The notes below the pieces were generated by a model. The model made no database searches and was not told the origin of the DNA. It saw nothing but the letters and a program-made list of their open reading frames with translations. Of a stretch of DNA of 64,000 bases, positions 53,812-56,635 are shown one piece after another. Location of the stretch: positions 4,654,001-4,718,000 of the forward strand of contig NC_018025.1 of NCBI RefSeq assembly GCF_000266945.1. Direction: 5' to 3'. Source of the stretch: Desulfomonile tiedjei DSM 6799 (GTDB taxonomy: Bacteria; Desulfobacterota; Desulfomonilia; Desulfomonilales; Desulfomonilaceae). Within the stretch, counting starts at the first letter, position 1, and every line of letters begins with the position of its first letter. Position numbers and translations under genes: made by a program.

Positions 53812-55917
53812 TTACAGGATCCCCATCTTTTCACCTATGAGCTTGAGCATGGCAATATTCTCGGTATGTCCCGTCCGGCGGGCGATAATCTTGCCTTTAA
53901 AGGGTCTCCCGAACAGGTAAAAATCACCTATTATGTCCAGAATCTTGTGACGGACGAACTCGTTTTCATAACGGAGCGGTGGATTGACCACTTTCTCATC
54001 ATCCAGGAGGATGACATTGGATAGTCTGCCGCCCCCCGCAAGCCCCATTTCATCCATCATGCGCATGTGTTTGACGAATCCGAAGGTTCGGGCAGGGGCT
54101 ATTTCTTGCTTGAAACTCTCGGGGCCGTCACACCTGTAACACATCTGCATCGTGCCTATTGGCGGCGGATAGTCCAGAAAGTAATCCACTTCCAGGCAAT
54201 CGGACGGTTCCACCCTCATGAACTTCGGGCTTCCCGAAGGCACGGGCAGTTCGATGGGCTCGGTTATCCTGACTTCTTCGATTGGATCTTCCTGTACAAT
54301 GATTTCCGCGTTCTCAACCAGATTACAGAACTGAAGAGCCGAGCCATCCATAATCGGCACTTCGCCTGAAATCTTCACGAGCACGTTTGTAAGGCCGTAC
54401 ACGTGAAACACCGCCATAAGGTGCTCGATAGTCTTGGCCAGCAGACCGTTTCGTTTGAGACACGTGGATAATTCCGTTGATTCCACATTGGAAATCACTG
54501 CCGGAACTGTACCTGCTGAAGTAATATGACCGAAGAGAATTCCACTGGACGGCGGCAAAGGCGACAATGTCAGGCCCGTTTTCACTCCGGAGTGGAGCCC
54601 CTGCCCGTACATGACTACTCTTCCCCGCAGCGTTTTCTGGCGGGAGTTGCTGCTTTCCGACATTACTTCTCGATCGGCCGGTCCCGGGATAATCGTAACA
54701 TTTGGCGTGCTTTCAGATGTGACCGGTTCCGGTGTGGCTTCAATAATGGTATCTACACCGGAGTTGCCCAGTACCCCCGTCATGGGAATGAGAAGGTCGT
54801 TTGCCGTAATCTGCGATCCGGGCGCTGTCATCACCACATGCTCGATCAAAACTTTGAGCTCTTTTACATTTCCCGGCCAGGGGTACGCAAGCAGGCGATC
54901 CATGGCCTCGTTGTCCATTTCGACCGTGTTCCGGTCGAATTCTTCACCCGCTTCCCGCAGAAAGTGATCGATATAAAGCGGAATGTCATCGGGCCGCTCG
55001 CGAAGAGAGGGAACTCGAACCACTCTCTGGGCCAGCAAATCCGCCAACTCCTGAGGGAACCCGTCCGTGCGGACCAGATCGTCTGCATCGGTCAGGCTTG
55101 TGGAAAGAATTCTGAATTCCGAGGAGTCGGATCGTGGATTTTTTCCATCTGAAATCATCAGCTCGCGAAGAATGGCGGCCAAAGGATCGCGCACGTCTCG
55201 TGCAAGCCGATCCACTCTCACGAGCAGCAAAGTCTTCTCATTCCTGCGGCGGTCGAAAGATGAAAGCACACTACCTGAACCGGACTTCTTGCCCAGCAAA
55301 GATTCGCGCACGTTTTCAGTAGTAAGTTCGGTACAACGGATCTTTATCAGATTATCGCGATCTTTGCCTTCCATCTGATGGATGACCCGCGCCAGGAACT
55401 CCTTCCCCGTTCCTTTCTCGCCCGCAAGCCAGACAGCCCCCTTCTGTGCTATGGTTTTTTCCAAGGTCTTCTTGAGACCGGCCACTTTGGACGATGTGCC
55501 GATAAGGTGAGCCTGAGCAGTACCGTTCCCTGAGTTTGTCTTCTCAGATTCCTTGACAAGAATGGCCTTGTCTACCAGGTGAAGAACGTCTTCCAGATTA
55601 AGCGGTTTTTCAAGATAATCAGTGGCACCCAGCTTGATGGCTTTGACCGCGGTTTCAATCGTCCCGTGTCCGCTCATCATGATGACGGAACACTGCGGAT
55701 CGATCTTCTTGATGGCTTTCAGTGTCTGCATCCCGTCAATGCCCGGAATCCAGATGTCCAGGAAAACTATATCAGGGGAATCGCTCTGAACGATATGAAG
55801 TGCTTCCTGACCGTCTCTGGCCTTAATCAGCGAGTGTCCTTCATCCGTCAGGATTGCGCCCAGAGATTCCAGGATTTCTTCCTGATCGTCAACTACAAGT
55901 ATTCTGCCTTTTTTCAT
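53812..55917 (-). CDS. lpxC: Response-regulator receiver/AAA+/LpxC fusion protein
   Basis: 701 residues from the ATG at 55917. Receiver domain (1-120): acidic D10/D11, phosphoacceptor D54 in VFLDIWIPG, S82 and K104. AAA+ domain (about 135-365) keeps Walker A (GEKGTGKEF, 166-174) but has lost GAFTGA (replaced by GKKSGSGS) and Walker B acids (LLLVRVDRL); the conserved PWPGNVKEL near 346 remains. The C-terminal 276 residues form LpxC, UDP-3-O-acyl-N-acetylglucosamine deacetylase: E498-H499 (TIEHLMAV), H657 and D661 (RHKILDIIGD), H684 (TGHTENIA), spacing 158/4/23 as in E. coli LpxC (159/4/23). The output DNA-binding domain is absent. Likely a phosphorylation-regulated LpxC. Confidence 0.9.
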   Translation of the reverse strand: MKKGRILVVDDQEEILESLGAILTDEGHSLIKARDGQEALHIVQSDSPDIVFLDIWIPGIDGMQTLKAIKKIDPQCSVIMMSGHGTIETAVKAIKLGATDYLEKPLNLEDVLHLVDKAILVKESEKTNSGNGTAQAHLIGTSSKVAGLKKTLEKTIAQKGAVWLAGEKGTGKEFLARVIHQMEGKDRDNLIKIRCTELTTENVRESLLGKKSGSGSVLSSFDRRRNEKTLLLVRVDRLARDVRDPLAAILRELMISDGKNPRSDSSEFRILSTSLTDADDLVRTDGFPQELADLLAQRVVRVPSLRERPDDIPLYIDHFLREAGEEFDRNTVEMDNEAMDRLLAYPWPGNVKELKVLIEHVVMTAPGSQITANDLLIPMTGVLGNSGVDTIIEATPEPVTSESTPNVTIIPGPADREVMSESSNSRQKTLRGRVVMYGQGLHSGVKTGLTLSPLPPSSGILFGHITSAGTVPAVISNVESTELSTCLKRNGLLAKTIEHLMAVFHVYGLTNVLVKISGEVPIMDGSALQFCNLVENAEIIVQEDPIEEVRITEPIELPVPSGSPKFMRVEPSDCLEVDYFLDYPPPIGTMQMCYRCDGPESFKQEIAPARTFGFVKHMRMMDEMGLAGGGRLSNVILLDDEKVVNPPLRYENEFVRHKILDIIGDFYLFGRPFKGKIIARRTGHTENIAMLKLIGEKMGIL

Positions 55918-56248: not shown

Positions 56249-56635
56249 TCATTTTGGGCTTTTCGGACAATTCTTACAACCCGCGCGTGCAGGTTGAGAC
56301 GTATCCGGAACATTTTGGGTGACTCCTTCAGCCTGAGTATTCCCGGTGTCCGACGATCCTTGAGGACAATTCCGACAGGGCTTAAGCGGTTTGGAACTAT
56401 CTACACCCACAAGCGTTCTGGTTGCAGCCCCTGAAACATCGAGCTTCTGGGGAGCCACCCCGTCCTGGGAGCCACTGGCGTCCACCAGGTGAATCGAACC
56501 TTTGGCCTTGGTCGGCAGTTGATCTGCCAGATTCGTTGGCGGCGGTTGTATCGATTCGTTCGCCCATACGAAAGGTGATGCACAGATGAAGGTTACCATG
56601 ACAAGAGAACAAAGAACTGCTGCTAGAATTCGCAT
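56249..56635 (-). CDS. Exported protein with two CxxC motifs
   Basis: 128 residues; signal peptide about 1-26 (MRILAAVLCSLVMVTFICAS) and a mature region rich in Pro, Ser, Thr and Gln. The C-terminal 45 residues hold CRNC and CKNC, a potential metal- or haem-like site, although no CxxCH is present. The start ATG has CGGGAGG upstream. Not assignable to a family. Confidence 0.55.
   Translation of the reverse strand: MRILAAVLCSLVMVTFICASPFVWANESIQPPPTNLADQLPTKAKGSIHLVDASGSQDGVAPQKLDVSGAATRTLVGVDSSKPLKPCRNCPQGSSDTGNTQAEGVTQNVPDTSQPARAGCKNCPKSPK

Follow-up and report, generated by a model that had tools for sequence, protein, structure and literature searches.

A putatively NtrX-derived receiver domain fused to the sole LpxC of Desulfomonile tiedjei DSM 6799

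Described systems and the fused gene of Desulfomonile tiedjei

Several response regulators carry an enzyme as their output; CheB is a receiver-gated methylesterase, and PleD and the HD-GYP regulators are others of this kind. The known control of LpxC proceeds through FtsH/LapB/YejM proteolysis or through transcription, and a 2025 review of LpxC regulation, which describes proteolysis, transcription and localisation in other organisms, regards the question of how LpxC is adjusted in bacteria that lack the degron system of E. coli as still emerging (PMC12444477). A text search of this review for fusion or response-regulator control of LpxC found nothing (PMC12444477). Two-component systems have been linked to lpxC through transcription. 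Loss of NtrYX in Rhodobacter sphaeroides raised lpxC mRNA 8.8-fold and about doubled LPS, indirectly (PMC7240162), and in D. vulgaris the lpxC gene is the single target of the response regulator DVU2934 (PMC3333781). A natural fusion of LpxC is also described, the bifunctional LpxC-FabZ protein (PRK13188).

The window analysed here, a stretch of 64,000 nucleotides from D. tiedjei DSM 6799, holds a fused gene on the minus strand (53812..55917) which reads receiver, degenerate AAA+, linker and LpxC. Its open reading frame comprises 701 codons from an ATG start plus the stop, with no internal stops; an alternative TTG start lies 42 bp upstream of the ATG and would give 715 amino acids. The receiver domain (residues 6-115; 55573..55902, minus strand; Pfam PF00072 Response_reg, 1.9e-30) retains the acidic pair D10 and D11, together with D54 and K104, and the codon of D54 (55756..55758, minus strand), the predicted phospho-acceptor, encodes aspartate in 96 of 96 aligned letters. 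It is followed by a degenerate NtrX-type AAA+ core (residues 139-305; 55003..55503, minus strand), assigned by a weak Pfam Sigma54_activ_2 match and an alignment of 31 domains, and by an AAA+ lid (residues 306-375; 54793..55002, minus strand; AAA_lid_14 PF25601, 1e-20) with a conserved WPGN(V/I)KELK motif. A low-complexity linker (residues 379-424; 54646..54783, minus strand), modelled with a pLDDT under 35, leads to the LpxC domain (residues 427-694; 53836..54639, minus strand; PF03331, 1.4e-79). The LpxC part scored 211.5 with TIGR00325 against an equivalog cut-off of 187.25, and 267.9 with PF03331 against 27, and holds the zinc and catalytic residues E498, H499, H657, D661 and H684 (E78/H79, H238, D242 and H265 in E. 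coli). The best score of the first half was to NtrX (NF051870), at 241.4 below the equivalog cut-off of 600.

An earlier note, made from the sequence of the window and giving no strand, had read the protein as a receiver, a degenerate AAA+ domain and an LpxC domain; Pfam and TIGR00325 bore this out, and every residue it had named (the receiver set, Walker A and the five LpxC residues) was found in place. In the AAA+ part, Walker A (GEKGTGKE, 166-173) is intact, while GAFTGA, the Walker B acids and the arginine-finger motif are missing, with LLLVRVD standing where LFLDEI is expected. The note was thus right about the loss of GAFTGA and the Walker B acids, and its view that the module is no sigma-54 activator is also supported by the loss of these motifs and of the arginine fingers. 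The helix-turn-helix (HTH) is gone in the family of the window. Directly upstream of the fusion, a separate gene (56249-56635, minus strand) encodes a 128-amino-acid predicted exported protein with the Cys motifs PCRNCP and GCKNCP, for which no match was found among the Desulfomonilaceae or phylum loci examined.

The locus resembles each of the described systems in part. Like LpxC (TIGR00325/PF03331) it has a full catalytic domain with the zinc and base residues, but it carries 425 N-terminal residues from a response regulator, and in the LpxC tree the fused sequences separate as a clade from every free LpxC sampled. With NtrX of the NtrYX system it shares the order of receiver and AAA+, the receiver ancestry and an NtrY partner gene; in contrast to NtrX, however, its output is an enzyme, and GAFTGA, Walker B and the HTH have been lost. 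As in CheB-type regulators, the receiver is N-terminal to an enzyme, and phosphorylation gating is likely, whereas the outputs of those regulators act on signalling molecules or chemoreceptors and the output here is the sole housekeeping biosynthetic enzyme. LpxC is naturally fused in LpxC-FabZ as well, but FabZ is a metabolic enzyme and the partner in the window is a signalling domain. Finally, R. sphaeroides NtrYX and Desulfovibrio DVU2934 likewise tie a two-component system to lpxC, but they act on transcription, whereas in the fusion the enzyme itself contains the regulator. Receivers with enzyme outputs, LpxC and NtrYX are therefore already known. No description of an LpxC-receiver fusion was found in the open-licence PMC literature, and what appears new against these open papers is that a receiver is joined to the sole copy of LpxC, a committed biosynthetic enzyme, in much of a phylum and in the absence of the free regulator.

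The sole lpxC and the spread of the fusion

The fused gene encodes the only LpxC of the complete 6.53 Mb, two-contig genome, so that the second intact lpxC which the earlier note had named as a counter-argument does not exist there. As the sole lpxC is the fused one, it must be taken as the housekeeping enzyme. The genome also encodes LpxK, so the lipid A pathway is not lacking in this arm; together, the single lpxC copy and LpxK argue for deacetylase activity of the fusion. An internal start yielding a free LpxC was considered and rejected, since of the 17 family members only 3 have a methionine shortly before the LpxC domain.

Within the Desulfomonilaceae, 17 of 18 genomes have a single LpxC each, and its frame is in every case about 700 amino acids long. 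The 16 further family genomes, mostly independent metagenome assemblies, have the three-part frame at 58-68% identity, and the 17 fusion proteins of the family align end to end, with one start cut by a contig end. The sister family f2 of the same class has an ordinary free LpxC. The possibility, raised by the earlier note, that two genes had been joined by a sequencing or assembly artefact can be dismissed: the identical three-part open frame recurs in these 16 genomes, making it common to 17 in the family, and an in-frame receiver is present in 79 of the 80 loci fetched elsewhere, while no point supporting an artefact was found. The fusion is real.

A search for the same domain order, which the note had proposed, found it across both family and phylum. 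We scanned 395 genomes, sampled evenly across the phylum and many of them metagenome bins, with a profile built from fused LpxC domains. In this sample, 90 of the 362 LpxC-bearing genomes, about a quarter and belonging to 25 families, carried LpxC in a long frame, a count compiled by hand. Frame length divides the two forms almost cleanly, fused frames having at least about 380 amino acids, with one truncated at a contig end, and free LpxC frames, among the matches listed, about 300-350, a few somewhat longer. A profile recognised the receiver in 79 of the 80 long-frame loci fetched. The remaining one (L235) was rejected as a receiver-less fusion, its receiver being found behind one in-frame stop; this stop (G142:C47, upstream of 6887), which lies within the receiver, is either a sequencing error or early decay.

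Two architectures occur, Rec-LpxC and Rec-AAA+(-HTH)-LpxC; the AAA+ part is present in 31 of the 97 fusions collected and absent from 66. Long frames of 1007 (L203), 1093 (L208) and 1423 amino acids (L161) were considered as single kinase-LpxC polypeptides and rejected, as Pfam found receiver and LpxC only; their upstream stretch covers an NtrY gene in another frame (L161, L203) or gave no domain match (L208). One genome (G419:C1) has two Rec-LpxC fusions of 475 and 479 amino acids (L157 and L158), about 130 kb apart. In family f34, two genomes (G242 and G284) have a divergent Rec-LpxC of 441 amino acids (L215 and L216; 252-253 bits) besides an ordinary free LpxC, and this fusion may be a specialised second copy.

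NtrX-like ancestry, constraint and the candidate kinase NtrY

In a quick tree of LpxC with several long branches, 45 free and 66 fused rows fell on the two sides of one branch (SH-aLRT 99), so that one fusion event suffices. Mapped on this tree, the two-domain label needs four changes, the root within the fused clade being unsure. In a quick receiver tree, built from few columns (121) and with a distant comparison set, fused and NtrX receivers grouped together (SH-aLRT 95). By these sequence comparisons, the N-terminal part of the window fusion is most plausibly the remainder of the response regulator NtrX, with a receiver of NtrX descent.

The pattern of conservation differs sharply between the domains. 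D10, D11, D54 and K104, as well as E498, H499, H657, D661 and H684 of LpxC, are invariant wherever aligned across the 97 fusions. All 31 fused AAA+ domains keep Walker A (GxxGxGKE) and all 31 have lost GAFTGA and the Walker B glutamate, whereas the free NtrX of relatives has GAFTGA or GSFTGA, FLDEI and the arginine-finger motif intact. Mean pairwise identity among the family fusions falls from 84% in the receiver to 76% in LpxC and 49% in the AAA+ part; the free NtrX of relatives shows the opposite ranking, with 67.5% in the AAA+ domain and 60.7% in the receiver. This reversed constraint, taken with the residues retained, indicates that the phospho-switch and the enzyme have stayed under selection, from which the sigma-54 machinery has been released. 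A Fis-type HTH lies between AAA+ and LpxC in AAA-bearing fusions outside the Desulfomonilaceae, and thus the whole of NtrX was fused there; in the Desulfomonilaceae the HTH is absent and the low-complexity linker takes its place. The earlier note had cast the AAA+ module as a regulatory adaptor. Its sequence suggests instead a remnant of NtrX in decay, in which the nucleotide site has been preserved, and since 66 of the 97 fusions are without it, it is not needed for coupling.

Structure models were consistent with this domain assignment. The AlphaFold model of the window protein (P0001) has a pTM of 0.38, and the first half of its LpxC lies mostly under pLDDT 50; residues 2-379 match Brucella NtrX (5m7p) with a Z of 25.5, and the receiver superimposes on the Brucella NtrX receiver (4d6x) with 44% identity and an rmsd of 0.9. 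A second structure comparison of P0001 (VIA) listed no LpxC chain, which, with the LpxC part poorly modelled, is not evidence against the fold. The model of a Rec-LpxC fusion (L033; 439 amino acids, pLDDT 80, pTM 0.63, linker under pLDDT 50) matches LpxC crystal structures, the best being 2ves (E 1.5e-27). The models support the domains, then, and not their mutual arrangement. A position of the receiver docked close to the active site was considered, and, given the low pTM of P0001 and the weak linker of L033, no interface is claimed.

At 27 fusion loci there was a kinase bearing the NtrY H-box, nearly always directly upstream and on the same strand, and six of these upstream kinases, when examined, had NtrY_N, HAMP, PAS, HisKA and HATPase_c. 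Among the matches listed, ntrY was adjacent to the fusion in 28 of 50 fused genomes and always came first; in free-LpxC genomes, again among the matches listed, ntrY lay within 4 kb of lpxC in 47 of 69, with lpxC first and on the same strand in 46. The order lpxC-ntrY-ntrX was found at eight free-LpxC loci. LpxC is thus linked to NtrYX in the phylum even without fusion, and this suggests, from gene order, that NtrYX may regulate lipid A or the envelope well beyond the Alphaproteobacteria. The same gene order, seen among others at loci L277-L286, is conserved in many free-LpxC families of the phylum.

A standalone NtrX ortholog scored 725-841 bits in all nine free-LpxC genomes tested. In contrast, none was found in any of the 20 fused genomes tested, where the best match, 551 bits, is at the level of other NtrC-type paralogs. 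NtrY was considered as a marker specific to the fusion and rejected, as it is near-universal (351 of the 395 sampled phylum genomes); the informative signals are gene order and the missing NtrX. The genome of the window has one NtrY ortholog (G000:C1:3596814-3599021), which scored 893 bits against 213 for the next kinase, lies about 1.1 Mb from the fusion, unlinked, and has no NtrX-type regulator beside it. Kinase matches were obtained in all Desulfomonilaceae genomes, with a full-length NtrY in 14 of 18 (813-893 bits, other kinases at most 213), and no receiver-AAA regulator was found directly beside NtrY at the ten loci checked in the family. As NtrY and the fusion are unlinked there, their pairing in this family rests on orthology.

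The window genome has many kinases, and another of them could serve the receiver. In genus g4 of the family (L025, L026 and L029-L032), the fusion is preceded on its own strand, at a distance of about 600-700 bp, by the gene of a large hybrid histidine kinase with a HEIRTPLNGIVGMA H-box and two receivers. This kinase does not lie next to the window fusion, and is a possible alternative phospho-donor.

Proposed control of LpxC and its alternatives

We consider it probable that the NtrX-derived receiver on the sole LpxC is phosphorylated at D54 by the membrane kinase NtrY, and that this would directly alter the fused LpxC, whether by allostery or access to the active site, by recruitment to the membrane via NtrY, or by a change in turnover. 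The NtrY linkage, the lack of a free NtrX and the receiver grouping are most simply read as a former NtrX receiver which is still a target of NtrY. The data suggest that envelope signalling may act here on LpxC directly and not via gene expression. The proposal of the earlier note, phosphorylation by a histidine kinase as a gate on LpxC, has in this way gained comparative support, from the strictly conserved phospho-acceptor set, NtrY in the operon of many relatives and the absence of free NtrX in the fused genomes.

It is conceivable, if rather doubtful, that phosphorylation tunes location only: the receiver would bind NtrY in the inner membrane and so draw the soluble LpxC there. The N-terminal region of NtrY is a membrane region (NtrY_N, HAMP), Ght places LpxC at the membrane in Neisseria (PMC12444477), and the long disordered linkers would permit tethering without fixed docking; however, the strictly kept acceptor and switch residues, and a receiver that in the family is more conserved than LpxC, suggest a role beyond passive tethering. 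We regard as unlikely a control of turnover in which receiver and AAA+ present LpxC to a protease, the output being the amount of LpxC. This would agree with the control of E. coli LpxC by proteolysis (PMC12444477) and with the tail of the fusions, which, with 14-23 residues after the catalytic histidine, have no E. coli-type C-terminal degron tail, so another entry point would be needed. Against it, a protease-docking motif was not identified, and loss of this tail was rejected as a trait specific to the fusions, the free LpxC of sister family f2 having a short tail as well.

That the fusion is still a transcription factor, with LpxC as a sensor of pathway state, appears very unlikely. The Fis-type HTH kept by AAA-bearing fusions outside the Desulfomonilaceae, the D. 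vulgaris NtrC-like regulator that binds only the lpxC promoter (PMC3333781) and the effect of NtrYX on lpxC mRNA in R. sphaeroides (PMC7240162) would favour it, and fusions retaining the HTH could still act on DNA. However, the absence of the HTH from the Desulfomonilaceae already counts against it for the window protein, the Rec-LpxC forms have by profile no AAA+ and a short linker only, and every AAA-bearing fusion has lost GAFTGA and the Walker B glutamate. It is scarcely credible that receiver and AAA+ are both harmless passengers of a neutral fusion, for although the AAA+ part is clearly decaying, the receiver retains its full set of phosphorylation residues throughout 25 families and, in the family of the window, is better conserved than any other domain, the standalone NtrX is missing while NtrY stays, and broken receivers are rare, with one in-frame stop (L235) among the loci fetched.

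On direct phosphorylation control by NtrY, we lean towards a history in which NtrX was absorbed into the enzyme to which it was genetically linked, losing sigma-54 contact and then, stepwise, the AAA+ domain and DNA binding, so that its receiver would have become a direct phospho-switch of LpxC. The series from free NtrX to whole NtrX fused, HTH lost and AAA+ absent would represent a regulator merging with its linked enzyme. LpxC, at which lipid A biosynthesis is committed, is an antibiotic target, and with a receiver on the sole LpxC and a candidate kinase identified by name it becomes possible to test whether signalling controls LPS synthesis directly, either in Desulfomonile, which is cultured, or with purified proteins.
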